Source: Bryum argenteum (taxonomy: Eukaryota; Streptophyta; Bryopsida; Bryales; Bryaceae). From it: 64,000 nt of DNA. Positions 14,312 through 39,055 of this stretch are shown here, in pieces; within the stretch, counting starts at the first letter, position 1, and every line of letters begins with the position of its first letter. Position numbers and translations under genes: made by a program. The notes beneath the pieces are model-generated. The model ran no database searches, had not been told where the DNA came from, and saw nothing but the letters and a program-made list of their open reading frames with translations. Location: NCBI GenBank assembly GCA_037043015.1, contig CM073326.1, forward strand, positions 16,872,345 to 16,936,344. The letters run 5' to 3'.

Positions 14312-17300
14312 CTGCTCCCAATAAAGCCACACCACAAATATTAAGCGAACAATACACTGATCATATCGAAGCGGTAAATACACTAAGCATAGTACCAAGT
14401 ATTACCTATACTGACTAAAAACATTCCTTGCTTACTTCGAAGAAATAAGTAAGCGAAGAAATTAGAACAATTTGACTCTGTCCCACTATTGAGTTAGTAG
14501 AAAAGGAAAGAGCAAACCGTAAATTAGAACTAAATTCTTGTATGATCATTCTTATTGAGTAGAAAAAATGCAGGTGTGCGTATGGAAGTGGATGGATCTT
14601 ATGGGTATTACAGAGGCAGGACCGACTAAGACATGTATTTTGGAGAAACTAGTACCTTTGTCCAAAAATCATCAACAGTGAAAAGGTTGTAGTATGATAT
14701 GAATGGTACCTTTCAATGGGAGGTGATTGAGCAAGGATGGTGTGACAGGGTACTTGATGCTGTGCACAACCACGCCACTTTGCTTGATCATGGAAGCAAG
14801 TCGGTCTTCTTGCGGTGCACACGCTCGCAAGAGAGAGAACACGTAATTGTTGAGCCTCCTCGCTTTCTTGGCATTTGTTAAAAACGCAGCCACTTCCTGT
14901 GTACATATATGAACCACATATTGTTAGCATCCTTGCTTATCCTCAACCAAGGTTTTGGTTATAGCCGTCCTCTCGACTTACGGCCACTTAATATTGCGGC
15001 CCACTTGCGCTTGGGTTCACTTGGAGTGGAACTCAAGCCGTCATTTACAAAGTGTGCCACCAAAAAATTGGCCCTTGAAATGAGCCCTAATATAAAGTGG
15101 CCCTTAGGGTAGAGGAAGTACCATGGTGTACGCGGCCGATCCGGACTTGGATCGCTCCAGAAGAAGCTCTTGCGCAGAAGGCAATGACTCGGCCTCGGCA
15201 GCGGACAGGACGTGATATGCGAAATCGAGAAGCTCGAATCGTAATTGCTGACCCAAGAGATACAAGATAGTGCACCCTCCCCATGCCACTGCATCTCCAT
15301 ATCGGTCTTGAAACGAGTCTCCTTCTGGTGAAATCTGATTATAAGCCTGCACATAATACAAGCAATAACTCATTCTAATATGTCCACTACACGAACTGTT
15401 ATCTATACCACTCAATGATGCTTCAACTTTAGTTTTTGGTGTTCAGTATGATACATTTTACTTCCAAGTATGGACGCTTTTGGTATAGGTACAAAGTTAT
15501 AGCCTTCATGAAGATGGCATTATATTGGAAACTTACAAGTAGGAGTGATTGCACGCTTGGTGGTACGCCTTGCATCATGGTCTGTCACAGCGTAAATCAC
15601 AGTGAGTATATTGGCAGCTATATCAAAATCTATTAGTTCAGGTCGGTTCACGAAGAGCTCACATATTGAAGGCCACTGTAAATCCGATGATATTCTTTTG
15701 ACAGAGTGATCTCAACAAGGCCTGATTTGGGTGGAAGGTCCCATTTATCTCGAGCTCGAGACAGAATCGCATGGAGGTATGTGAGCGTGTAGTCCAATAC
15801 GCTCCCCGTTTGCAGATTGTTCATGTACAATATATCTGTTCGCCATGCCCACCCCACATCATTGGTGCATATTCTCTTATTTGTTGAGCATTTTTCATTT
15901 CTAGCTATTTGGGAACATCAAAACAAGAGAAATGGGTAGGAGAAGAGTACCTACAACCTCAGCCTGCTTGGCCATGGAGAGAAAAGCTGGGCAATTGATG
16001 CGTGATGTGCTGTACAAGACTTCAGTGGTGGCTTCTTTGAACAAGCTAACCACAGGGCTAAAATTATCATCACATAGCAGTTGTTGCAATTGGCCGTCTT
16101 TGTTGGGAACTACACCTAACCAAGGTACTACTTGCATAAAATGTACAGTTTCGGTCTCTCTCTGCCAAATCACGACACCACAATGTAATATCAGCTCCGC
16201 AATTTCATCGTTTAAAGAGAACAGCAAGAAATGAATCATATGTCAATAGAATTTTGCAATATTGCAGGTCATCGAGCCTTTTCCAACTTACCATGGCGGT
16301 GTCAAGAAGGCTCATCCAGAAAATAAGACTCCCGATCTCTCTCAATCCCTGCAGCATTTCGGGCCTCCCGTCATAATTTACAGCCCACTGTAATTGCTCG
16401 GTAAAGTGGTTCAAGCTCTCTGTCGTTTTGTCAGGCCAACCGAACATTATTAAACTTGATTTTTTTGTCATAAACATTGTACAAAATGAAGATTTAGTAC
16501 AATACCTTCAACTCCTGCATCGTATGGAGGCAGGGAAATTGTCTTAGGCATAAGGTCTCTTAAGTCTTCGACCCAAGGCTGCATTTGAAGTATCTGAACA
16601 CAAAAACCGTACCGAGGGTTTCAGAAGATGTACAAGGACTTCCTTGTTGATAACATCGAATATGATTATTGAAGTAATCTTAGTCCTTCCAAGTGTATAT
16701 ATTACCATTATATCTCTAGAACCTAACGAAGGTGTTAGCTAGGCACATGCGAAGATGTCCTTTAACCAAGCGAGCTTCAAAACTTTTGCCGCTACAAAAC
16801 AGTACTTCATTGTGAAGCGTTCAAGTTTTCATGCAGTTAACCTTTTGTGACAAGTAGTCAAGCAATGCTCGAACAAGCCATGGAAGCGAGCGAGATCCCA
16901 ATAATTTCACAACAGCGAACATGTGAGGAAGACCAAAAAACTTGCTGTGAAGCTCTGCTACAACCCCATGCGCCTCGTTCAGGTCCTGGAAGTAGACAGC
17001 ATACGCAAGAAATCATCATGAGAAAGGACAAACAGCCTACTCTAATAAAAAGCTCTAAAATCACAGTCAAAGAAGTGATCATATTGAGGCTTACAGTGTT
17101 GCCGAAGAGGAAGCATGGGTCAGCGAAAGGAGGGGACGGTCTTTTAATAGGCCGTTTGGGTGGTTTGCTTGACCTCACAAACCGCTGTGTGGTGGTGCAC
17201 AGCATGAAATTCGGGAAAAAGTCATTTTGAAGCTCTACCAAAACCTGGAAGCATTTGAAAGTTAATCATCTGATTGCAATGTTACAATATTGCTGAAGCA

Positions 17301-20300
17301 GAAACATGTGCGATGTTCACCTGTGATGCCATTCGCCCTGAAAATGAAACCAGTGAGATTGTCTCACTGATTTCTCCCAGCATGAGATTGAATGGGTCAA
17401 TCGCAAAATGCTCAGAGAGAAGATCATGAGTCAGTCGTAACGTCTCCGTCAGTCTTTGCAAATCCTGTTACAATACAAAGTTGCCAGTGAATCAGTTCGT
17501 CAGCACAACGGGAGGTGATATTGCGACCTAATGAATATGCTAGAAACAAAATACATGAGTTATAAAAACGTACAACAACTGAACATAGGTCCTGGGACTC
17601 GAATCGCTCGAACAGGAAGTCCAGATTCTCGCGGAAGACTTTGTTCAAACGTTGCCTTATCAAATGTGCCAAATCCACGTTCCGGCCTAGTAGCTGACGT
17701 ATAACACAAGTGAATCACTTTCATTAGGGCACCAATAAACTATTCAAATATGAAAAACGGACTACTACTAAAAAGACTTTCGTCAAATAAACAACAAGAA
17801 AAGCTACGTGCAATTTGCAAGATGAACACGATGAACAAACAATCAAGACGCAGGTTCATAACAATGAGGGGTACCTTAACACGCCGCACTCTAAAAAGAT
17901 GGTCAAAACGTTTTGGAATTACAATATATTTCTCACAGTCGTTGACGGTTGTCATGAATGACATGTCCAGCATCTTGCTGCACTCCAGACACAATGAGAT
18001 GATATATTAAAATCTAAACTTCAGTAATGTAAGTCAATGTCAAGTGCAAGTTATCTTCAATTTATCAGTTGACTTGCATCGTTTAAAAGGTATCTAAAGA
18101 TAAGAATTCGTACTGTAACTGACTGTCAGTTTCAGCACTTTTAGCTAGTGCACTCACGAGATGACACTAGATTAAAATGCAATATATGACGAGATACCTC
18201 AAATAAATAACACTCGTATATACGAGAGAGCGTGCTCGAGATCCAGTTTACTATCAGCAGACGATCTAAATCATTTACCTCGAATATCAAATGGCAAAGA
18301 TAACGACTGATAATAACTCGTACCTGGCTGCGCGGCACTTGTGATGGATAAATATTTGCTCACTTAGTTGAGACACTAATTGATCGAAGCATAAGTCCGC
18401 CTGCAAACAACATCAACATTCCAACTTTTGAAGAACTGAACGAAACATTGGTGTTGAATGCCTGCGATTGACTCATGCAACCATGAGATAATAAGAGCAA
18501 TGTGTCCTCTATAAATGCCTTAAGGTATTTCTGAAATAACAATGTTGACATAAGAGAGGTGAAAAACGAATACCTCTGCTTCAATCTCGTCGTATAAGAA
18601 GCGCTGTTTTAATACACGTAATGACTGATCGGCGGCGTCATTATAAATATCGAAAGGAAGAAGAACACTCTCTAGCAATCCAATATCCTTCGAATCCAAG
18701 ACATGCTCCACCAGCATCCATGGTAGGGAGCACTCAATAGGAAACTGGAACAAATCACAGGCTATTAGAATATCAAACTTGAACTATATTCTTCAAATTT
18801 CAACTGTTTGCATCATATTAAAAAAATCTTCTCTTAGTATACCTGAATGACCCTGGAAGTTTCAAGATAAAACTCACGGAACCATAAGAAACCCAAGTCG
18901 GTTACATGTGCAAGAGTTGCTGCAGACACCCACCCAGTCAGTTAGTTACGAACCTGATTAAAACACCAAGAGCATTATACGGTAGCTTTGAAGTAGCGGA
19001 TCATACCTCTGTAGTCGATGACATGAGGGAAAAATGCAAGCCTGTTGAAGAAACTCTCAAGTTGTCGCAACTCAGAAGTGGGAACTTCTGTTTCGCTTGA
19101 AGTGAAAAAGCCACCGGTCTTCTTGGGAGAGCCTCCAGTCACGATTTCGTGTATCAGGTACTGCATGCAGTGAAGCTGCAGCCGGAATATTATAGCATCA
19201 AAATTTAATCGAAAAGTGATTACATGACTTTATATAGGGAATGAAGGATTCAACTTCCAATCATACCTGGGCAGCAGTAGGGAAGGCAGCTCGAGGGTTG
19301 TATACAACTGGAGGCACCACATTGTCCTCCCTACTTAACTTCCTGCTTTTCACCTTCTCAGTTACTGGTGGTGGCTTCCCCTGCCAGTCCGCTGCTATGG
19401 TTTTCATATCTTGCAAAAGCCTGAAGGGACATCAAAACGTTAACATTCATGCCTAAAGAAGGTAATAATGCTATCCATTTTGCAAGGATAAAGATCATCA
19501 GATATTAGATAGAAAGACCTAGAACGGCATAAAAGCTTGCTGCAGATCGTGGACATAAAAAGATCATGACACTACAAAAACGTGTGAAATACTATATATT
19601 GTGGAAAGCTTGAATGGAGAGAACCATTTCAAGGTTTCCGCGATAGAATCTAAGGGCTAACTTAGAGGATACTCATGCTTTCAGAACAATTCTTATATGT
19701 GCATATTAGAAGCCAACAGAATAGTGAATACAATTTACAGCTGAGTCCTTACCGAGCGAGTTCCTTTTTCCTCCTCAAGGATGTGCGAAGCATAGTAGGG
19801 ATTTTTGCTTGAACAAAATCTTGCACTTGAGCATGGACAGACTCCCAGACAGTATTGGCCACGAGAGTATCAACTCGTTCCATCATGGTGCCCACGCCCT
19901 TGATGTATCCTATAGTCTCCATGAGTGCCTTCCGTTCTTCTGTCGAGTAATTGCATCTGACCACCTATTGCAGTAAAACGCAACGTGATATTTATGCATA
20001 TCGAATGAATGATTAGATTCACTGAACAAATGGCGGTAGACAATACCTTTTCATAGTCAGTTACTTCGACAACGCGCTCCGCATCAAAACGATCAGAGTC
20101 TTTAGCAGGTCGAGAGAATTTCCAGGCACTTTGCTGCCACACTCGCCCTGTCCACTCGCTTAGCAGCTGGAAACCCTCGACCACCACCAGGTACACATTC
20201 TCTTTCACACGTTTCCTTAATGCCGGATCAACCATCATCTCCACGTTCGCTACTTCGAGCTGCAGAAGAAAACAGCTCATGAAGTCAATACATCCAATCA

Positions 20301-23250
20301 CAGATTCTTCATGTAAAGTTTCATATAAACACCAGATGCCATTGGGCAGATTCATAACAAACCGACTTGTTTTCTGTCGATTTTGTGGGACATCTATAAA
20401 AGAAATTGTCCCATACTGGGCATGATCCAGCTTTGATACTTCAAGAATACAAGCACTCGTCTCTCATGGAGGGAATTCGATGACTAATGTTTTAATATTC
20501 ATATTTCATTTATAATTTCTATGAAGAGATCCCCATGAGGGATTCAGAAGTAGCTAAACGTGGTATGCAGGCTGAGAGTTATTACCTGGTTCACAGCTGA
20601 AGCGAACCGAATGCAGAAATCATCATGAGCAGTACGAATAGTTGAGATGTTGTTCACGACAAGATACTCCCTCTGGTACTTGCTGATAGTTAAGTTGAAA
20701 CGATGACAGAGAAGAAAATGTAACAAAGAAATAGGAACGTGCAAAGAATAATGCATGAAGGAATGCTGCAGGTGGATATTCTACGGCCTCTTTGGCGCTG
20801 AGTTCATGTGGCAATGGGAGCCCTATAAATCGCATTTGTGCCGTGAGTCGGTGAAAATAAGGTGCCAGTTCCTTCAACATGCTTGCAGGTGCCAAATGTA
20901 GATCTGGAAACGCTGGAATTACTGGATCCTTCTGTTACACAAACAGTGCCATGAACGGTCAGTTGTTCCCAAAGTAATCTAATATGAGTCTCTATTGACT
21001 TTGGGACGTTTTAGCTTTGAATGTATTCACGGAGGTGGATGTCTATGTTGCTAAAACATCCGCATTTGGTGAAAAGACTGTATAGGTAACGGTAAGTAAA
21101 ATAATTAGTCCGATGAGAGTTGTGCAAAAATTGGAACTGCTTGAACTGTTGGAGGTGAGAATGGTGAAGAAGAGAACCTTGAAAATGTTCATGAGACGGG
21201 AGATTTTGATCTTTTTAAAGATGGACTCGCCTTCTTTTTCACCAGAAGTTGCAAGGACGACAAGGACTGGCAAGACTCGTAAAAGCGAGTGGCGCTCCGA
21301 GTACAGCAACACACGATCAGACTCTAAACACTCTAGAGTGAAGAGAATGAGCACTTGAATAATGTCCTCCACCCTGCGAAACGTAGAATAATCAATCACC
21401 TATGAAGCATTCTAATCACCTACAAGGGTTCGAGGATAGAGCATACCCATTGACTCGAAAGATCTCTTGCTGCAGGTTCAGCAATATTGTCCACCGTGTG
21501 CTCAAGAAAATCTGTACCAAAAATACACTGACCTCAGTAGCTTTTTCTATTTATATTGCTGAAAAACACTTGCACATCTACTTTCAGAACATGGACATGG
21601 TCCTTCAATGATGCCAACCTGAAGATCGTCTAGCTCCTCGCGCATTTGCTCAGTTTCTGGCCAACTGACGCTTATTTGAGTGAAAGTCCTGCAAAAGAAG
21701 TGTCAAGTCACTTAAACAAAACTTTTAAGGTTGCATTAGAAGGAATCAGTAGCTATATAGTTATATAACATACCTTTTGTACCAAGAAAAGTCATTTGGA
21801 ATGCTAGCTTTCGCATTCTTCAGGTGGTCCAGCTGAAGTAGAATATCAAGTAACCGTAACATTGCCCTGTCAACAAGTAATTAAGCTTGTTTCGAGCTCT
21901 CCAATAAAAACAATGAATAGTTGTAATAGTACTTTGGTGAAGGTTAAGCGTACCACATATGCGTGACACTTGGACCGTTCAGTTTCTTTATAGATTGCGT
22001 ATAATTGTGCATGTCAACTGCAAGCTGCCATGAAAGAAAATTTGATCAATACCACACCAATTGCGAAAGTCCGAACCAATTCGCAGATGTTGTCTTTCTA
22101 ATTCATGGTCATGTAACTTAGTCTTCAACTCTACTAGAGGTTAAGAAATCCTCAACTCAAAACCAGTCAGCTATTCATAAAATCGAATGTAACACGAAGC
22201 TGGTATATAATCAATGACATAAGAGACATCTTACTTTAAAAGCTGCAGATGATTGCCATCGTTGAATTTCTCGAAGCCGCCCGATTTCAATATCAAGCAC
22301 TTGATACGTTTCCAAGTAAAGGTCGGCTTGACTGTCCTTCATCGACTCGGGCAACTGAAGAATGACGACAAAAAGACCACTTTAAGAGCATCCCTCTCCA
22401 GAAAATCAACATCGTCTAAAAAAACCTACTTTGTCTTCGATCATAATAAAAACTGTTCTATGATGATCAACGAGTACAGGTCCCATACCTGGGGGAGAGC
22501 TTTTACACAGCTGCGATATGTGTAGAGGATCGAGACTAGGCCTTTTCCCTCACTAAGAAGGTTATCCTGATACAACAATTCGAAAGACATCAAAATCTAA
22601 TTCCCCAACCTCAACCAAGGTTACTTAACAAAGACTGTATAAATGATAAATAGGCGGCAATGGTGACACAATGTAGGTGAAAAAGTACCAGCTGAGTGAC
22701 AGCATTCGTATCTTCCACAAGAGAGAGCTGGTAAGCTGGAACATCGTCATAATCTGCAAGCTCAAAAAACCAACTTAGAGCTTTACACAATCTTCTTGTA
22801 AACCATAAATTTTATGAGAACTTCGACATTGTTAAAATAAAGTGAGATTGATCGTATATATACCGACGGGGCTCTCAGTTGCAACTCGTCCACTGATGAG
22901 CGTGACACCCAGTCCTTGCACATCAGGTTGCTCATCCTGCCCACACAAGTTTAAACATGAGCCCGAAACCCTAACCTCACTATCCATCACTAGAGCACTT
23001 GATCGTAGTGTTTGTACTGCTCACACAAAAAATAGCAGCAAATAATTTTTTTGAGTGAAGCGAACCCGGTAGCTATTCTGAGAAAGGCAATTAGAACTAC
23101 GTTGCTCAATATCGTATGCTTTTAGCTTCATAGTGCGATTTCAAAGTTGACCTCTGCAACAACATTCTGCGGATAGTAACAAACCTCGAGCGAGAAGGTG
23201 GACAAAGCTGCCACAGCCTCATCGACAGGAATGGCGGGTATGGACGCCAT
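14193..23250 (-). CDS. SRA1: SRA1/PIROGI, CYFIP-type subunit of the SCAR/WAVE complex
   Basis: PIROGI/CYFIP links activated Rho-of-plants GTPase to the SCAR/WAVE complex, which switches on ARP2/3 actin nucleation in the cytosol. Thirty coding exons can be chained from ATG 23250 (MASIPAIPVDEAVAALSTFS) to exon 14896-14672. All junction phases agree and the product is 1306 aa; Arabidopsis PIR is about 1283 aa. Landmarks in order: LPESMKDSQADLYLETYQ, VLPVLVVLATSGEKEG, GLPLPHELSAKEA, VVEGFQLLSEWTGRVW, FPIECSLPWMLVEHVL, LLESVLLPFDIYNDAAD, RFESQDLCSVV, TTQRFVRSSKPP, VKLLGSRSLPWLVRALLD, VAWGGCTILYLLGQQL, KKARRLNNYVFSLL. A donor at 14709 also allows splicing to 14311-14193. This adds an acidic tail ending TPRDEDVLNTS and gives 1333 aa; I prefer this end. 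One junction (20785 to 20678) removes two residues relative to Arabidopsis. Confidence 0.95.
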
Positions 23251-23745
23251 AACTCCTTCTAAGCCCTTCTTCGTCGACTCACTTCTTCCAATGGTCTTGA
23301 TCGCTGACAAGCTTCTCCTCCGCCATACTCATTTGCAAAAATCAATTCCGCAACAACGTAACAACGGAAACAAACCCGCTACCTCAAAAACAGGGGATGA
23401 TGATCAAGCAAAAATCGTAGGGGGAGCCCTAAGAGTACCGACTGGGTTGTCTCCTGCATTGATGGCGAGTGTCCTGGATGTCCAATTACCCAGAAAACGG
23501 AATAATTGAATACTCTCTCACAGGGCTATGTTACCTACCTAACTCTGTTTCTCTCTCTTACTGGAACGGGAAGGACAGTCTGCAAGAAAAGAAGTGCGCA
23601 GCAGCAGAGCTTGCTTGAATGGGTCAAGGCGGCACGGAAGACAGCTGTGTGTGGGCTTCCTTTCCGTTTCCCCCTCATGAAAAGATTAGCACAGCTATGA
23701 CTACTATTGCAATAGACTCTTTTTCTTAGTATTGAATGCACGCTT
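22932..23745 (-). promoter_or_regulatory. SRA1 promoter, leader exon 1 and intron 1 (source of a duplication)
   Basis: This segment runs from the intron-1 acceptor through exon 1 (22 codons, 23250-23185) to upstream DNA. A second copy lies at 34083-34885 with the same orientation and order. The SRA1 copy is functional in context: its donor (23184) and acceptor (22937) join exon 1 to exon 2 in frame. Confidence 0.85.
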
Positions 23746-25269
23746 CTTCTTCTTCTTGCTCTGCAACAATGTGAGGAAGACGAAGATGGCATTGAAGAAG
23801 AATCAAATCGAGCGAGCTTTGGGTCTTGCGAGTTGCTACGGAAGTGTCCAGTCTGTGTCAGTGTACGAAAGATGGGGGCATGTCATCATCGAGCTCTCAC
23901 AATCGACAACGACTCTGATATTGTTGCTTCCAAAGCCAAAATTCAAAAGTCATAAAAAGGGGAGAGCAATTTCAACCCCTACTTAGACATCTCAATCACT
24001 AGGTTTGGACAAAGGTGATTTAGCTAAAGAAAGTGAAGTAGATCAAAGAACAATTCTAGGATTTCATTATTTTCGAGTCTGGAAGCTCAAAAAAAATCTA
24101 TGCATATTTTCAAGGTCAATGTGTATAGTGTGTTCATAAGGCCAATGTGTATGCTCGAAAATTATAACACTCATGGTGGGACTACTAACCATTCTTGAGG
24201 TATACACTGAAATTGAAGTCAAATCATTATTCAGTAAAAATTATATTGATGATATTTAGAAAAGGCGAAAGATTATATTGTTTGATGGTGGCGATTAGCA
24301 CTCTAAGTACCTTTGAGACAAGGAGCCAATACCTTTTTGCTAACTCTGACTTACAATTAGGATAAATGTATGAATTGAAGAGCAAGAGAAAGAGGTGTTT
24401 TGAAAAGGTCTTGTTTACTTTTTCAAAACGACAAAAAACATTCTTTTAGTTTTTTTTTTAAAACCTTTTGTATGCATTTCCACGAACAATGTTAATTGGG
24501 ACCTCGCAAGTACAACCAAAAAAATTGCCTATTTGAAGTTCAAACAAGGAGCATATGGCCATTCTTTACTTCTCAGTGTCTCCATTTAGACCCTTGAGAG
24601 GGGTCCCTATGTACAAAATGCTACTTAATAGTTCTAAATGCTCTTATCAAGTACCTCTTTGATTTTCCATAAACCCTTATTGTGCTTATTTTTTAAATTA
24701 ATAGGTAGAATTGATTTGTTTTCTTATGGCAAAGTTGGTAAGAAGTAATTTCTAGTAGACTCTACCTTAGGGACGCTTTACATGAAAATTCAACATACAT
24801 GAGATCCTTAGAAAAGGAGGAATAACTTAAGGTTGGAGGGTCAACAATCACTTAGAGTATCCCCACATTCGTTGCCCACCAAGGAGAGGCCCTCGACCCG
24901 TCAAGGATAGCGTGTTATTAAAACCTCCTACTTGCCTTACACCCACGCAACTCCCATCCATATGCATTTTCTTCAATTAACATGAATTCTTGGAGATTTT
25001 AGCGCGCCTTCTCAAAAAAACTTCAAAACTTACAAACCTTTTCACTTTTTGTCACGAAGTTCAGTATAAGGTAAAATAGAGGGGGTCATTTAACCGAGAC
25101 TGCTCTAGAAGGGTGTGAATTCCCAAGGATGTTTGTTTCTAGGCTAGAGCGGGTAACGCATGTGACTATTCTATTGGGGATGCCTTAACATTCCATAACA
25201 GTACGCTCATTGAGGAGTGACAAGGAGAATCAATTGTGACAAATGTATAGGAGATTGAACTAATTGGAA

Positions 25270-29418: not shown

Positions 29419-31597
29419 CTAAAAAAGAAATAGTTTTTCTTCCGTATACAATGAACGTAATTCTTTTTAGATTTGAGTTTGGCAATTGGGGCGTTCATGG
29501 TGTAGAAGCCCATGCATGCAAAGGACTTATTCATGCCTGCCAAAACATTCTCTAACATTCAACCACTTTTTCTTACTTTTGATTTGATATGTTGTATGAA
29601 TTCCCGTCGTTTCTGAAGCCTATTTTACATTCTTGCTTTGTAAATTACATATTTACGCACATTGATTCATTACAATTTGCTCGAAATGATTTGTGGCTTA
29701 GTTGAAATGTGTGATGAAAGCCATCCATGTGGGCATGATTGAAACTCAAAGTTGGACATGAATACGTCCACTTGGTGAGCTTCATGTAGGACTTGTTGCA
29801 GCTAAGTAGGATGTGCGTACTATCATCATAATTTAATGCAAAAATTCAACATTGGTACAGGGATACCATGTTACCAACATGTGTAAGAAGCAAATGGGAA
29901 TTTATTGTCAGCCCATAGGACCCATCATGTCAGTTGTTGGCAGCGCTGTTCCAAAGTCAGCTTCAAAAATGTAGGGTCTTACTTCATGTAAGCTAGGATG
30001 TTTCTATACCACCGGTAGGAGTTTACTAGACATTGATTTTCTAGAGTGAAGCTACGTCTTTGTATATTTAATGGAAACATTTGACATCAAATCTATACAT
30101 GTAATGTTGTTTATCAATACGGTAACATTGCTTCTTTTTTAGAGAATGTAACGATAGCAAGTAATAAGACGTTGCTTTGTGTGGGCAACATTTAGTAAAA
30201 AAGCATGTGATTTCTTTAGTGGATTTGTGTTAATTATGAGGTTAAGTTGGCCCATTTGTCGCCTTGTTGAGAATTGCAATGAAAAGAACGCTCTTCATTC
30301 GGCTTGTGCCCTCATTACTGTGTTGGTTTTTACCGCAGTACTTTATGCAAAAAACATAAAAGACCAACAATTACACACTAGGGACATTCTACTGAACTAA
30401 CTCATGAAAGATGAAATGTTTGATAACCACGCAATTTTTATCAATACAAAGCTAATTGTGGAGTGACAGGAAGATCATAATTGAAAAATGAACTAAGTTA
30501 GGAGGAGACTAGATTATTTGGAATCATGTTAACTGTACTTATCTTAATTTAGTTAGAAGGCAATATCGTAAGTGCACCTCAAACCACACAACCTGAAGTA
30601 TACCCAAAATCCAACTCCTAGGTACATTAGAATCTAAAAATGAAAGCAAAAATCTTCGTATTCGTGAACTACACAAATAGTACAGGTTTTGGTCCTCTAC
30701 ACTTCTGAGCACTTTGACGTAATTCTGGACCCCTACAGTCAAAATTGATTACAATGTGGTTGATTTGTTTAAAAAAGATATGTTGTTTTTGCAAAAACTG
30801 CAACTTTGATTGACTGTAACTCAACGTCCGTGCGGTCAAATTCAATAAAAACTGGGAGACAGACTAATTGGACAGTCTTAAACAAAATCCTATGGTTGGG
30901 TTTCTCAAAATCAAATTTGAAAAAACTTCGTGAAGGTCAACTTGTAGGGCTTCTCCGGCCGTCTGGAGGTCACTTGTAGGGCTTCTCCGTTGGGGGTTAT
31001 CTTGGTTGTTGTACCGTAACACCATAGTTGGTTCGTTCTCTGCTGAACGAATAATTATTTTTTTTGAAAAAATAAGGTTCGTTTCTCGCAAATCGAATTT
31101 TTAAAAATTCGTCTCTATATTTTTAGAGAAAAAAAAAATCGGGGCAGAGAAGGGGGTTTATTTGTGAATGGAGCTTCATAATGACAAGACTAAGCAAGAC
31201 TTAAAATCAGTAGATTTGGCAGCTACATCAGTGGGGCCAACGCATAGTTTCGTCATTTAACCATTTTTGAAGGGCGGCAAATTAAGTCCACAATTCCTCC
31301 AGAATCATTATACTCTATTTTCTCAATTTTCGGTTTATATTGAGATTATTTTCCCTGAAATTCACTCTTGAAGGCATGGAATTTCCGTTTTTTTTCGTTT
31401 GTTATTTTTGGAATTATTTAAGAACGAACCAGCTATGGTGTTACGGTATACGGCAATGATGTCAAAAGAAAATTTGCTGCCCTCCAGATTATGGAGCTTT
31501 TTACGAGAAGGGTGTGGATTCTATGGCATACGATACAAAAAGGTGGATTTTGTGTATAAACACAGGATTCGTGTACACAGGATCAATGAAAAAGTAT
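29419..31597. other. gene-free stretch with a dispersed inverted repeat
   Basis: No gene is recognised. Arms at 31012-31038 (CCGTAACACCATAGTTGGTT) and 31422-31448 are inverted copies with one or two mismatches, and may mark the ends of a small element. A-rich and T-rich runs are frequent at 31050-31150. Confidence 0.5.
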
Positions 31598-31869
31598 ATC
31601 AGGGTCGACTGTCTTGAAAACAGAGTCCGAGAAACAAACAAAGACATAGCAACGTACTTGAAAGATCTAAACTGAGCAAATCACAAAATCCGATATCTGC
31701 ATCTCGCACAACCCAAGCACGCGCTTGACTTACAAATCGCACGCCTTCAGATTTCATAGATTCGGCCTGCACTGCCAGATCTCCTCCATGCCACTTGCCT
31801 AGCTCAACAACCTCACTCTCATCTCCCAAACAGCCCACGATCGCCCCATATCAAGCCGAATCCTCTCAA

Positions 31870-32440
31870 AGGTACAACCAGCATCGATCATCAGTAAAGT
31901 ACAGCAACAAATGTGAACCTTTCACTGCCCATAGAATGATTCCTCCCGCAATAGGGATCTGAAAACAGCCGAACGAAGACTTGATCACGAACGAGTTTGT
32001 CTCTTGTGATGCTCTTATTATGTTCTATGTGCTAAGTCAATCACTAAAAGCAACAAGACCAACTGAACTTTCACAGCAAATGCGATACGATAGCTTCTCA
32101 GCTTTCAGTGCACATGTGATGATTTCTTATGCATAAGGAATTCGAGAAAAGTGATGATCGCGAACGAGTTCTGTCTCCTGTGATCACTCGCTTATAATGC
32201 TGAAGCATGCCAAGCTGATGCATCAATACCACCATGGGATCATCTCGAAGGTACAAGTGAACTTTCACTGCATTTGCATAAAGATAGCTTCACAGCTTTC
32301 AATGCACATGCGATGATTCCTTGCGCATTGGGAACAGTGATGATCACGAACGAGTTTTGTCTCCTGTGATCACATGCCTACGATGCTGAAGCGTGCCAAG
32401 CATCAATACCCACCTTGGAAAAGGTAAAGAAGTTAATGAC
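31870..32440. repeat. three imperfect ~190-bp tandem units behind ATG16
   Basis: Each unit carries GAACTTTCAC near its start and GATCACGAACGAGTTTTGTC near its end. The shared sequence falls at about 31980, 32155 and 32342. The last unit finishes about 60 bp from the ATG16 stop codon, so the array probably overlaps the ATG16 3' UTR. Confidence 0.75.
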
Positions 32441-32497
32441 CAGCATTGAATTGTATTACCATATGTACACACACGGGACAAGGGAGGAGAATTCGCC

Positions 32498-34024
32498 CTA
32501 CTCCCACACGATGACGCTCCCGCTCTTGTCTGCAGTGACGAGAGGTCTACCTTGATCACTCCAAGTACAAGCTAAGACAGCACTCGTATGGCCCTTGAGA
32601 GTGACAGTGCTATCTTTCGCATACCGATTCCAAACAACCACGGATCCATCCGTTCCACCCGCGGCAACGTACTTCTCATCGGGGCTAAGGCAGGAACGAG
32701 TCCAGTTCGTGGCGACCTGGACGCCAGGCGCTCGAAATGAGGCTTGCACTTCCAGCGTGCGGACATCGATCAAGTTGTGCACATTGTCACGACCACTAGT
32801 GAGCATGGTGTGACCATTTTTGGAGACGGAGACTGAGGTGATGCCGTGATTGTGAGCCACCACTTCACTCGACTGCTTCCCCGTGCGAATGTCCCATAAC
32901 CGCAAATTCCCATCCATGTGACCCGAGCACAAGACCTCGCCGTTCATCGTGAGCGCCACTGCATTGCAATTCGAGTAGCAGATCAACGTGTTGGTGACAT
33001 ACCCCGTTTGCATGTCCCAGGTCTTCATGGACCTGTCGTAGGCTCCACTTACAGCGCGCCGGTTGCTCGTCTTGCTCACATCCACTGAGACTACTTTCTC
33101 GGTATGACCAGTTAGGGTATGTCTCATTCGGCCTGTTTGAGTCTCCCAGAGATGGAGCTTGTGGTCACTGCAAGCAGCGATGACGAGATTGGAGTCGAGG
33201 GAAAGCGAGAGGTCTAAGATTGAGCCGAGACTACCTCGGAGTGTGGAGAGGGATCCCCCGCTCGTGACATTCCAGCTCTTGACGAGCCGGTCGTGGCCTC
33301 CACTGAAGACGGATTTGCCAGTGTGCTCGAATTGGACGGCAGAGCATGTGACATCATGTGCACGAATCATGTGCTTCACTGTTGATGGTAAGCCGGATTC
33401 AACGTAATCCTCCGCACCAGCTTCACTATGGCGAACGATGCCATCCACTTGCGCACGAGCAAGCTCCTGCAACTGTCCAGCTTTCACTTTCTCCATCATA
33501 TCCTCGTACATCGCATTCGCTTCATTCAGGCGCTCCGCGTCTTGCATCTTCTGCTTCATCCATCGCTCAATCAGCATGTCGTTCTCCTTCTTCAAGTCTT
33601 TAATCTGGGCCTCCAGCTCGGTGACGTGACTCCGAAGCTCGCTAACCTCGGATAACGTTGTTTCGAGCGTGTTTTTCGTCTCCCTCGCCTCTGTTTCGAG
33701 TTTCGAGAGTGCGGTTCTCTCGGATGCCAGAAGCTCCTGGAGTTCGCTGATGGTGGTTTCTTTCTCAGTGAGTTGCGTTCGTAAGGATTGGCTCTCTGTA
33801 AGCTCGGAGACTAGCTTCTCGCTGACTTGGGAGTGTTTCTGGTAGCTTTGGTTTAACTCTAACTGTAAAGATTTCACTTTGTCTTCTAGTTCTAGAGCTG
33901 CTTGCGAGTTTACTACCTGGGAGATCACCGCGATCGCTGGCGCGTACGCTCCCTCCTCTTGCCTGTGCCGTCGCTTCAGTGCCCGACATGCCTCCACTAT
34001 CGCATACCCCATTCGATCCTCCAT
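32498..34024 (-). CDS. ATG16: ATG16, WD40 autophagy protein (intronless)
   Basis: ATG16 binds ATG5-ATG12 and directs ATG8 lipidation to the phagophore membrane. The single open frame encodes 508 aa, close to Arabidopsis ATG16 (about 510 aa). The N-terminal ATG5-binding helix reads ALKRRHRQEEGAYAPAI. A coiled coil covers about residues 45-175 (leucine/glutamate heptads) and ends ERWMKQKMQDAERLNEAN. Seven WD40 blades follow (about 220-508), with blade ends such as DRLVKSWNV, HKLHLWE, RSMKTWDM, GNLRLWDI, GSVVVWN and GSVIVWE. There is no intron, whereas the other large genes in the window have many and seed-plant ATG16 is, from memory, multi-exon. It is therefore probably a retrogene. No stop or frameshift is present, so it looks functional. 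Its upstream region is a copy of the SRA1 promoter and leader. Confidence 0.95.
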   Translation of the reverse strand: MEDRMGYAIVEACRALKRRHRQEEGAYAPAIAVISQVVNSQAALELEDKVKSLQLELNQSYQKHSQVSEKLVSELTESQSLRTQLTEKETTISELQELLASERTALSKLETEARETKNTLETTLSEVSELRSHVTELEAQIKDLKKENDMLIERWMKQKMQDAERLNEANAMYEDMMEKVKAGQLQELARAQVDGIVRHSEAGAEDYVESGLPSTVKHMIRAHDVTCSAVQFEHTGKSVFSGGHDRLVKSWNVTSGGSLSTLRGSLGSILDLSLSLDSNLVIAACSDHKLHLWETQTGRMRHTLTGHTEKVVSVDVSKTSNRRAVSGAYDRSMKTWDMQTGYVTNTLICYSNCNAVALTMNGEVLCSGHMDGNLRLWDIRTGKQSSEVVAHNHGITSVSVSKNGHTMLTSGRDNVHNLIDVRTLEVQASFRAPGVQVATNWTRSCLSPDEKYVAAGGTDGSVVVWNRYAKDSTVTLKGHTSAVLACTWSDQGRPLVTADKSGSVIVWE

Positions 34025-34082
34025 TGCTACCCTCCGCCAAACCCTAAATCCTTAATCCTTCTAGAATAAACTTACTTCATCG
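34025..34082 (-). promoter_or_regulatory. ATG16 leader with inherited splice acceptor
   Basis: The intron-1 acceptor copied from SRA1 (TGTGGCAG) ends at 34088. Downstream sequence begins GATGTGCGATGAAG and then diverges from SRA1 exon 2. A predicted spliced mRNA would join the copied exon 1 to this leader. The copied SRA1 start codon would then give a 25-codon uORF ending at TGA before the ATG16 start. Confidence 0.5.
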
Positions 34083-34885
34083 CACATCCTGCCACACAAG
34101 TTCAAACATGAGCCCGAAACCCTAACCTCACTTTCCATCACTTTGAGCTCTTGATCGTAGTGTTTGTACTGATCACACACAAAAAAGCAGCAAAGATTTT
34201 TTTTGAGTGAAGCGAACCCAGTAGCTGTTTTGAGAGAGGCAAATAGAACTACGTTACTCAATATCGTATGCTTTTAGCTTCATAGTGCGATTTCAAAGTT
34301 GACCTCTGCCACAACATTCTGCGGATAGTAACAAACCTCCAGCGAGAAGGTGGACAGAGCTGCCACAGCCTCATCGACAGGAATGGCGGGTATGGACGCC
34401 ATAGGTCCTTCTAAGCCCTTCTTCGTCGATTCACTTCTTCCAATACTATTGATCGCTATCAAGCTTCTCCTCCGCCATACTCATTTGCAAAAATCAATTC
34501 CGCAACAACGTAACAACGGAAACAAACCCGCCTACCTCAAAAACAGGGGATGATGATCAATCGAAAATCGTAGGAGGAGCCCTAACTGGGTTGTCTCCTA
34601 CATTGATGACGAGTGTCCTGGATGTCCAATTACCCAGAAAACGGAATAATTGAATACTCTCTCACAGGGCTATGTTACCTGCCTAACTCTGTTTCTCTCT
34701 CTTACTGGAACGGGAAGGACAGTCTGCAAAGGAAAGAAGTGCGCAGCAGCAGAGCTTGCTTGAATGGGTCAAGGCGGCACGGAAGACAGCTGTGTGTGAG
34801 CTTCCTTTCCGTTTCCTCATAAAAAGATTAGCACATCTATGACTACTACTGCAATAGACTCTTTTTCTTAGTATTCAATGCACTC
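34083..34885 (-). pseudogene. duplicated SRA1 promoter, exon 1 and intron 1
   Basis: Colinear with 22932-23745, about 95% identical by eye. Differences include a roughly 10-bp deletion near 34585 and scattered substitutions. Exon 1 (34402-34337) still encodes MASIPAIPVDEAVAALSTFS, and the donor and acceptor are intact. It is truncated as an SRA1 gene, because homology stops about four bases into exon 2. Given its place directly before ATG16 on the same strand, it may serve as promoter and leader for ATG16. Confidence 0.85.
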
Positions 34886-35250
34886 TACTTCTTTTTTCTC
34901 CGCCGAACCCTAATTCAGGAGCTGGATGCTGCAAAACCTCAAATTCATCCCTTCAAGTGCCCAATTCAGCTACTGCTCCTTCGACCAGTCAACCATCGAC
35001 CCAGTCACGAAAAGTAGAAAAATTGCTGGAAGATCGTTTATATTGCTTCGGGATTTCTTTTAAAAAATGCGAAACGAGATGAAATTCTGCATGTAAATAA
35101 TCTACAGCACGAGAAGCCGAAGGTTGTTGCGATTGCGAGGTCAAGGGGGAGCGATTGAATGCATCGATCGAAAGCTTCAAGTGCAGGACGAGGAAACTCT
35201 TGCGTGAACTAAGGTTTACTTCGACTCCGGAGAAAACTTCAACGAAGAGT
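34886..35250. other. spacer between ATG16 upstream region and piggyBac relic
   Basis: No gene recognised. TTAA at 35251-35254 is the left target-site duplication of the adjacent element. Confidence 0.5.
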
Positions 35251-35254
35251 TTAA

Positions 35255-37367
35255 CCCCTGAACGTCCTGGAGGCCCTTTCTGGCCGTATGCGTTAGTTTA
35301 CTCAGTATTTGAGGAATCTGCAGTCTTCAAATGCAGTCGAGCCCAAAAGGAAGATTGTGTATCTCGAGAAGACGCATCTGAGGCTGTGTGGTAGGCCCCG
35401 TATGGTGGCGCCATCTGGTAGATACGACAGCTTGTATGAGAATTGGGGTACGGTACGAAGACGTGTACAGGAGCGATTCCCCCGATGCTTGGTGGGGTCG
35501 ATTGTGGCTTGCGTGGCATTCCCGTTAGGTTTGATGGCGGGAGAGCCGTGGCGGGAACCCCAACTGCCAAGAGCTGTCCGGAGGGGAGGCTGCGTCGCGC
35601 AGTGCTGCCGTGGTGTGCGTGCGCAAAGAATTTCAGCTTGTGCATACGGGAGCGCACGGATTGGCTAAGGTTATCATGTTTTGTGAAGGATTGTACAGGG
35701 TTCGAGATAGTGGGCGTCCCTATACGTGCGGTCGTTTGCAGGTCTGAGTGATTTTTGGTAGTGGGAGACTGGTTCAGTGGGCGAAGACGGCGATTGTGCT
35801 CATTACAAGGAGCGCTTAGGGTCGTGGGCATGCTGTTTTGAGACAGGACGGAGTCCCGTGGTGCGTGGCCATGGCGGAATCAGTTGGGTACTTAGCGGTG
35901 GCGAGAATTCGTCTCCACACCTGGGCGATTGAGCATGGAGCAACGGCTCGACAAGCAGCGCGCATTGTAGAATTGCTCGACTTAGATGCCCTTCATCGCC
36001 TGCCGCTTCCACCTCGCACTCACAGGAAGTCGGCAGGAGTATACCACCCAACTCCACTCCCACAAGTGGTGGCATCGGGTTTTGATGTTCATCTTGGACA
36101 GCACTCTCTTGAATGCCTACGTACTGTACTCCGAGGACCAACGTGCTAGGGGGTTGCCACTGTGTAGCCGTGCACTGTGGCACTACACTTTGGCTGAATC
36201 TCTGATCCGGCCTCGCTTGAGACCAGGGCATATCCGCGGGCCAATTCGGAACCTGGCCGCAGGAGGATTGCATGTCAGTGAGGCACACGGCTCACTACGT
36301 CGTCTGTGCGTGGTATGCCAGAAGCGGACACGTCGCATGTGCGGTGGCTGCGCCGGGCAGTTCATGTGCGAAGGACGATGCTACCACGTTGTCCATACAC
36401 AGCCTGGGTACCATGCGAATCTTCGTCACTAATCCTCGTTGTTCCAGTTGTGGGTATTTCAGGCAGCGGTCTGGATGGCGCCGTTGGCGGACAAATGGTG
36501 GGCTTTCTTGCGTGGCTCGACGACACCGCGTGAGATTCGACGGGAGTAGAACCCGAGGGCGTGGTGCAGCGGAACGTGAGACTCTGCGCAGTCTGAGGGG
36601 AGCAGCCAGCGATCACGATTTTTATTTTTTGAGTACCAGCACTTCCTATTCTGCCCAATTGTGGCTAAACGAGACGTAGCTTGCAGCGACAGTAGTCTAT
36701 TATGCAACTCTTTGCGTCCCATTGCGCGGCCTTGTGGGAGTTGCAGTATGCAGGCTGTAGTTCCTAGCCCACTTGGCAACAGCAGTCGTAGCAGGATGCT
36801 TTTTGCATAGACTCTAAAACTTGCCCTGCCATCCTAAACACCATGTCGTAATACATCGGCTTTATGACTTCTTGTTGCAATACATCGGCTTTATGACTTC
36901 ATGCGCGCCTTGTCTTATGTTTGCCATAGTGAATGTGCTTGGGCACGGTGTTGTTGAGATAACTGCTCGGAGCCGGGGCGGGTGTCTGCTGGCGTGCCAA
37001 CATGGCTCCTGATTCCAGAAAGTGCGCAGATTCCCGCTACTACTGCACCATGTGTCACGTCCCGAAGTGGACACGTTGGTGAGTTGTGAGCGTACAGACC
37101 GTATGTGCCGTGCAAGCCCTGGCGTTGCTCCGGGCCACCCGACCTCCTTACTTACGGTATCGCGCTGCACCGAGATTTCAAAAAATCTCGACATCGCGAG
37201 CACCAGAGTCGGTGTGAATCATTCCAGAGGTTTAAGAATTGTAGTCCGGCTCCATCGGAACAGTTGGGATTTGCAAATTGAGCCAGACAGAGAGCACCGC
37301 ACTGCTTTACTGCTTGTAGAGCTACGGCCTGTGGTTGTACATCGGGACCCCAGCAGGCGTTCAGGGG
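35255..37367. mobile_element. piggyBac-type transposon relic, 2.1 kb
   Basis: Both ends read CCCCTGAACG inward, then lose perfect symmetry (TCCTGG on the left, CCTGCTGG on the right). Both are flanked by TTAA (35251-35254 and 37368-37371). Base composition is clearly more GC-rich than the flanks. A broken transposase is encoded on the plus strand inside. Confidence 0.85.
35290..36432 (+). pseudogene. piggyBac-like transposase, decayed
   Basis: The clearest part is the open frame 35986-36432. It carries SHKWWHRVLMFILDSTLLNA, the K-W..R..F/L..D...VNAY block that closes the piggyBac DDE domain. A cysteine-rich zinc finger follows (CVVCQKRTRRMCGGC, then C and YHVVHT), as in the piggyBac C-terminal DNA-binding domain. 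Upstream, homology appears to be spread over other frames (for example CTGAIPP near 35465, resembling the GTxRxNRxG segment). Several stops and frameshifts separate it from the 3' part, so no active transposase is encoded. The family assignment rests on motifs plus the TTAA flanks. Confidence 0.75.
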
Positions 37368-37371
37368 TTAA

Positions 37372-37608: not shown

Positions 37609-38339
37609 GTTTTGTTACAGGAATAAGGTAGAGGCTCCTATAATCAACCATTTAGAACGTATGGCAATCATATTATCAGCTTAGCAAGAATACACATAAC
37701 ATTACAAAGTGTGTATAGGAAGCCAATAGTTTTCCTCATTACATATCAAGTATAGGTTAAATGATTCCTATCTTTTCCAATTCATGATATTTTATCGTCA
37801 TGTACATCTACTTACAATTCTAAAGGGGAAGCAACATTTTAGACCCTTACTTCGTTACAAGAGAAAACTTGGCCTCGTGCAATGATTTTCATTTTCATAT
37901 TCATTCACGATCGTTGACCGTTACATGCAATTTTCCATCCATCCAGGCAAGACCCTAGTGCAATAATTCACTCTATAAATATTTCCTAGTTATATTTTTA
38001 CCTTTAAGGCTATCTTAGAAATATGAATATGACGCATTATTTACCAACGTATCTTACTTATGATTGAGTGTTCATTGATTTGTATACACTAAACTATCAC
38101 TAAGTTTTTTCTAATTTTTAGACACCCTCGTTTAGTACTTCCTTACATTACAAAACTTTGATTATGATACTTTTTTATATTGATTCTGGATCAATGTTTC
38201 TATCTTGAAAGAAAGTGATTAAATGGATGATTTTTGAAGAGCTAAATCTACTTCATCCATTGTTGGATTGTGACTTTGTTTTTGGGATAAATTCCGATTA
38301 AAGTTTAGTTTTAGTGGGAGAAGGCTTGACAAAATCGAA
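37609..38339. other. gene-free stretch
   Basis: AT-rich, no recognised feature. Confidence 0.45.
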
Positions 38340-39055
38340 GATATATTGAACTGTATTAGTATGGTTACTTTCACCTTGTTTATTGTGTAACTTATTATGA
38401 CAATTTGCAATGTTTTACCACTTCTTCATGAGGCATGGTATGGAAGTATAATGATGTATACAATCACAACAACATACATTGTTACAGGGTGCTTACAATG
38501 TTAAAATTGCTTCCTTGGCATACATTGTTACAAATGCTTACTTTGTAAGAAATGTTTGATGGGGCATGATATGAAAACACAATGTCGGATACAATAACAA
38601 CGGCATACATTGTTAGAGTTGCTTACAATATTAGAATTGCTTGATTGATGAAGCCATTGCCTTCGTGTTTTTATTGCAGATACTCTCGTCATCGTTTGTT
38701 GAACACTATGGAAGTAAATAAGATACATGAACATGTCAGTCAATGACCGTGCTACTCCGTATAATTAATGGCAAGAGCAACCATGTGAAATTTTGTGGTG
38801 GCCTCCATGGGTAGAGAGGTTTTGCCGCTTTTATGGCCTCATGCAAAGAAATATATTGTTCTTTTCTCTCATCAAAGACTCCTGGTTTGAATTCTACCTC
38901 AAAGAGGAAAGCTCTAAGACACTGAGAAGAAAGCGTGTGCCATATGATTTGGAAGTTGTAGAGACAACGAATGATGACTCTTTTTATAGTTGTGACAAGA
39001 AATTTTTAAGTCTTATTTCTTCATCCTCTTCGTTTTGCAATTTGTAATGTAACTA
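38340..39055 (+). pseudogene. decayed duplicate of the B3-domain gene
   Basis: Colinear with the minus strand of 8046-7435. The donor-like GTATGGTTACTTTCACC (38372), the intron, its acceptor (38680) and the B3 exon are all recognisable, so it arose by DNA duplication rather than from mRNA. Recognisable peptide pieces include KEESSKTLRRKRVPYDLEV and the terminal SSSSSFCNL. A replaced segment near 38735 and later frameshifts break the domain. The exon-1 side is poorly conserved. The copy also has extra duplicated segments within the intron (ACATACATTGTTACA repeated). Confidence 0.85.

Follow-up and report, generated by a model that had tools for sequence, protein, structure and literature searches.

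The stretch of Bryum argenteum DNA that we analysed (the window; 64,000 nucleotides, positions 16,872,345 to 16,936,344 of contig CM073326.1, here C6) carries on its minus strand an intronless coding sequence of the autophagy gene ATG16, 508 amino acids long (32498..34024), identified by its open frame and by a Pfam search that found PF08614 at 3.8e-19, above the cut-off, together with WD40 repeats. Immediately upstream, also on the minus strand, lies a second copy of the 5′ end of SRA1 (34082..34903), whose source is the SRA1 upstream region, exon 1, intron 1 and first bases of exon 2 (22930..23764, minus strand), as read from alignment and sequence; the ATG of SRA1 exon 1 is at 23250, the exon ends at 23185 and intron 1 occupies 23184-22937, all on the minus strand. 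The SRA1/CYFIP identity of the source comes from a family-model search with PF05994, which gave 26 genome matches, 10 of them at window positions 15188-20232 (C6:16887532-16892576), downstream of exon 1 and on the same strand. The joining of STFSLE to DEQP across intron 1 is predicted from the open frames and from an Arabidopsis sequence. Two further SRA1/CYFIP-family loci lie at C3:20631083-20636359 and C6:10465202-10468122; aligned over 475 columns, the 1.6-kb stretches taken from their 5′ ends agree at 94.7%, and they showed no similarity to the SRA1 5′ region of the window.

Local alignment of SRA1 23764-22930 with 34903-34082, in the same orientation, gave 94.7% identity (776 of 819 aligned bases; 838 columns, with 43 mismatches and 19 gap positions). 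This bears out the repeat of about 0.8 kb and about 95% identity that an initial annotation had described by eye, at the place where it had put it, except that the upstream end is at 34903, slightly past the 34885 proposed. The direction of copying, from SRA1, is likewise upheld, since the copy holds the SRA1 coding exon 1 (34337..34402 by open-frame analysis, 22 codons), which differs from its source at two positions in our reading of the alignment, both synonymous. Beyond the SRA1 upstream region and this exon the copy contains the whole of intron 1 (34089..34336, minus strand, 248 nt, GT...AG, with exon 2 beginning at 34088 if the intron is used) and halts at the acceptor; donor and acceptor are both intact, as had also been noted. 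Its length is near the 252 bp given as a published mean for moss introns (PMC1079823). A dispersed repeat, which had been named as the danger to any special reading of the segment, is not what we find: whole-assembly DNA searches (258.8 Mb in 25 contigs, all match counts being lower bounds) returned two matches, the copy itself and SRA1, both accounted for, and a longer query (34030-35700) returned the same two for its SRA1-derived part. The C6 ATG16 is thus preceded, in the same orientation, by the upstream sequence and first exon of an unrelated gene.

The key to the history of this arrangement is a second ATG16. A protein search of the genome with ATG16 gave 33 matches, two of which are full-length ATG16: the gene in the window, and an intact, intronless, 99% identical copy at C5:1440988-1442511. 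The remaining 31 are 21-41% identical, begin at residue 211 or later and match WD40 only; the search with PF08614 likewise returned two matches, the C6 and C5 ATG16 loci. ATG16 is a multi-exon gene in other plants, and neither search of this one genome found a multi-exon ATG16 parent. By eye, neither a poly(A) remnant nor a target-site duplication was seen at either end of the C5/C6 block, a check which bears on the duplication between C5 and C6 and not on any older retroposition. Of the label ‘retrogene’, therefore, the absence of introns stands, and the parent and the poly(A) expected of it were not found in these searches.

To either side of the SRA1 piece lies DNA that the two loci share, over 31770-34034 (95.3%) and 34899-35216 (94.7%). 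The first includes a downstream block (31770..32497, minus strand; 43 mismatches in 721 aligned bases), and the second is an older ATG16 upstream and leader block (minus strand), now upstream of the SRA1 piece, whose only other match in the search with the longer query is at C5. Some 35 bp further on lies a piggyBac-like insertion with TTAA and 14-bp inverted ends (35251..37371, no strand assigned), which has a 94% related copy on C7 (C7:9464804-9465585) and a weak Pfam match to DDE_Tnp_1_7 (E 0.0061, below the cut-off); beyond it homology to C5 restarts, at 37632-37668 and 37697-38350. This resumption past the transposon-like insertion indicates that ATG16, already intronless, was duplicated as DNA between C6 and C5. 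A comparison of 150 kb of C5 with 144 kb of C6 (high-repeat pieces left out) did not establish a large duplicated block: the single strong block, of about 95%, is ATG16, and the other pieces are mostly 67-86% identical, several of them repeats. Past the transposon, identity between the contigs falls to 84.0% (568/676), and part of this DNA belongs to a dispersed family; a duplication of a single age does not explain this value, which counts against the simple picture. Taken by itself, 37697-38350 is about 83-84% identical to C5:1443070-1443731, next to a block of 95%, a contrast that gene conversion or a faster decay of methylated DNA could possibly have produced.

Other repetitive or truncated sequences lie near both ATG16 copies. 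On C6, the ATG16 downstream region is adjoined by a MITE-like element (31012-31449) that measures about 437 bp and has inverted ends of about 28 bp; of 647 candidates 40 were scored, and 39 of these proved to be additional copies, at 91-95%. On C5, an element some 370 bp long (C5:1437180-1437574) is dispersed, being found at 97-99% in 39 other places, among 40 candidates scored out of 2681 at first look. A truncated gene fragment, which we take from its motifs to be aspartokinase-like, occupies C5:1439301-1440226 and ends 2 bp from the 3′ edge of the C5 ATG16 block; its relatives are longer on C2 and C9 and partial on C4, and its other half was not found in 150 kb of C5. On this evidence, C5 may be the side that was rearranged at the 3′ edge of the ATG16 block.

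The C5 locus thus provides a copy of the recipient gene that has no SRA1 piece; and because C5 matches both sides of that piece, the SRA1 DNA can be taken to have entered an existing ATG16 leader. We consider it very probable that the history was of this kind: the leader of the pre-existing, intronless C6 ATG16 would have gained 0.82 kb of DNA copied from the 5′ end of SRA1, about 11 kb away, inserted between the older upstream block and the ATG16 start codon. The converse, in which an ATG16 cDNA would have landed within exon 2 of SRA1 after the SRA1 5′ end had been duplicated, was one of two explanations offered by the initial annotation, and it has some appeal when C6 is read by itself, in that ATG16 is intronless and lies within 59 bp of the SRA1 acceptor, and that the GATGTGC after the acceptor could, by eye, be exon 2 with 12 bp removed. 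It is, however, overturned by the finding that the same DNA flanks the position of the SRA1 piece on both sides in C5, and that block 34899-35216 is associated with ATG16 on C5 and missing at SRA1; we regard it as extremely improbable.

The junctions of the insert retain what look like scars of repair. The C5 leader reads TTAGGGTTTGGCGGA-CAGAAT-GATGCGCGATGAAG-AAGGTAGCC-ATG, and the C6 leader TTAGGGTTCGGCGGA, the SRA1 piece, GATGTGCGATGAAG, 27 bp, TTAGGGTTTGGCGGA and GGGTAGCA-ATG. A 15-bp direct repeat is thus present twice on C6 (all features here on the minus strand), as a left copy TTAGGGTTCGGCGGA with one mismatch to the others (34899..34913) and a right copy TTAGGGTTTGGCGGA (34033..34047) that agrees base for base with the one copy present in the leader on C5; a scan of both strands of 294 kb from C5 and C6, with one mismatch allowed, finds the repeat at one more site. 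This doubling on C6 favours insertion there over loss from C5. Between the right repeat and the leader motif GATGYGCGATGAAG are 27 bp (34048..34074) that are missing from C5, and for which no full-length source was found within the window. The repeat is not a textbook target-site duplication, because GATGYGCGATGAAG, which is common to C5, lies after the SRA1 piece but before the right repeat, inside the duplicated interval. The C6 junction is therefore more complex than a simple insertion, and we infer several template switches during repair. The simplest route would be that a break was repaired in an error-prone manner, the synthesis jumping to SRA1 as template and returning, each time at a short match, and leaving the 15-bp direct repeat and the 27 bp of extra sequence behind. 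One such match is visible by eye, where the C5 leader has CAGAATG and the SRA1 acceptor CAGGATG; it could have set the junction, so that the end of the copy at the acceptor is explicable without selection for a usable splice boundary, the other explanation that had been offered for it.

Should the SRA1 piece instead predate the duplication, C5 must have lost it, by deletion or by the copying of a spliced transcript. Three observations speak for such a loss: C5 restarts close to the acceptor of the intron, a few bases away; a 44-nt stretch found only on C6 begins, by eye, with GTAAGT and ends with AG; and the divergence of the SRA1 pair is not below that of C5 and C6. A loss, however, must also have stopped exactly at the old insertion boundary, and a deletion between the 15-bp repeats would not yield the C5 sequence. 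An RNA copy is at odds with the homology past the gene (37632 on) and with the poly(A) unseen at the block ends, and 44 nt would be very short for a moss intron, judged by the lengths published for mosses (PMC1079823). We rate loss from C5 as improbable; the particular version in which C5 is a copy of a spliced C6 transcript was ranked lower, since C5/C6 homology extends past the gene. By parsimony between the two loci we infer that C6 gained rather than C5 lost the SRA1 piece; the search for an outgroup, in a prokaryote genome collection, gave 14 pattern matches and no relatives. As a separate observation, the C5 leader has an in-frame ATG five codons upstream of the ATG16 start (MKKVAMEDRMG), whereas on C6 the frame of the same ATG runs through AAG into a stop codon, which it would escape if the 44-nt GT...AG stretch were removed.

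Dating the copy by aligning the two segments, as had been proposed, gave a Kimura distance (K2P) of 0.0545 for the SRA1 pair, next to 0.0492 for the ATG16 upstream block and 0.0623 for the downstream block; as all divergences lie at 0.04-0.06, the SRA1 copying and the C5/C6 duplication appear to be of similar age and cannot be ordered. For the ATG16 pair itself dS is 0.043-0.050 and dN 0.0034-0.0036, with 17 synonymous and 4 non-synonymous differences. Without constraint 15.5 non-synonymous differences would be expected, and none of 5000 simulations was as low as 4, from which it follows that both ATG16 proteins have been kept; both copies look constrained. In the copied SRA1 piece no conserved core stands out, the longest run free of mismatches being 100 bases (permutation P 0.13), and the best 100-, 150- and 200-base windows of the copy (P 0.13, 0.22 and 0.07) give no excess conservation. 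Nothing here, therefore, shows selection for use as a promoter.

What the insertion did for ATG16 is less certain than the insertion itself. An ATG16 mRNA headed by a spliced SRA1 exon 1 is possible: the SRA1 module would act as a second, proximal promoter of the C6 gene, the 248-nt leader intron would be spliced, and the resulting mRNA would keep the SRA1 start codon as the head of an upstream frame. In the longest predicted spliced leader (from 34903; 631 nt) there are nine upstream ATGs including that of SRA1, which opens a 25-codon frame, MASIPAIPVDEAVAALSTFSLEDVR, stopping 52 nt before the ATG16 start. An in-frame SRA1-ATG16 fusion protein was considered and is ruled out, the spliced frame stopping after DVR. 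Translation of ATG16 would then depend on leaky scanning or reinitiation and would probably be less efficient; the upstream ATGs (up to nine) count against efficient translation from such an mRNA. SRA1, however, also has upstream ATGs in the copied region, according to our reading of the alignment, so that some of them may be tolerated; the C5 ATG16 leader likewise carries upstream ATGs, one of them in frame, which would add five residues. Leader introns are described as able to boost expression in plants (PMC5430346), and the SRA1 module with its leader intron could help the expression of ATG16 in the same way.

We judge the chances of the module being used as a promoter to be about even, and we hold the whole explanation, that is insertion on C6 together with a second, proximal promoter and a spliced intron, to be as probable as it is doubtful. 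Its main competitor, which we consider tenable but the weaker of the two, is that the SRA1 piece was inserted and is inert, with transcription coming from the older block, from a start near the ATG, or mainly from the C5 copy. The many upstream ATGs of an SRA1-headed leader, a copy without excess conservation and an intact second ATG16 on C5 would all be accommodated by this; yet the distance from the older upstream block to the ATG has grown by 0.85 kb, the transposon-like insertion about 35 bp beyond that block cuts off the upstream DNA, the C6 protein is constrained and so needs some promoter, and nothing is missing from the SRA1 module, which keeps both its donor and its acceptor. A more ambitious form of the promoter reading, which we think rather unlikely, is that one break-repair event copied a whole promoter-exon-intron cassette, with the acceptor as the match that set the junction; that this cassette either rescued a duplicate, the promoter of which the transposon later cut off, or reprogrammed it; and that the SRA1 start codon now tunes ATG16 translation, the two genes sharing an input.

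Whichever of these holds, a young ATG16 pair that differs by one promoter-exon-intron cassette is a clean natural experiment: C5 provides the cassette-free leader, SRA1 the donor, and the two ATG16 proteins are nearly identical, so that it could be measured directly how the output of a gene responds to the capture of a promoter, to a leader intron and to a start codon inherited from the donor. The locus also illustrates how an insertion, if a single copy of the pair is looked at, can mimic the fusion of a gene into an exon.

To gain a leader through the local duplication of DNA is an uncommon route to a possible new control region, but one of a known kind. Short duplications reportedly flank break-repair insertions in rice (Vaughn and Bennetzen 2014), and the direct repeat that bounds the C6 insert is likewise what would be expected from repair of a staggered break; unlike those insertions, the C6 insert is 0.82 kb long, carries regulatory and splicing signals, and comes with an extra 27 bp and a displaced motif. 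At the sun locus of tomato, a copy of SUN was placed with the retrotransposon Rider in an intron of DEFL1, under DEFL1 control, as that work describes it (PMC7072075). There as here, duplicated plant DNA was rearranged such that a gene came, or may have come, under the promoter of another, but in tomato the gene was moved to the promoter via a retrotransposon (PMC7072075), whereas at C6 the promoter piece was moved to the gene and may have changed its expression. In amphioxus, a SYCP1 retrogene is described as having replaced its parent, co-opted the CHIC promoter and gained 5′UTR exons (PMC5803294); ATG16 resembles it in having no introns and no multi-exon copy found by our genome searches, and in a foreign promoter and a spliced 5′ leader, both predicted in our case. 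The neighbouring bidirectional promoter was, however, co-opted in place in amphioxus (PMC5803294), while a promoter-exon-intron piece was copied in at C6, and SYCP1 is a retrogene, whereas ATG16 is a putative one. A survey of Drosophila retrogenes that acquired regulatory regions, from what is described of it, mostly inferred selection and insertion context (PMC2413143). Its question, of where an intronless gene obtains a promoter, is also ours, and the answer that the C6 ATG16 suggests differs from it in being the physical copying of another gene's promoter (PMC2413143).
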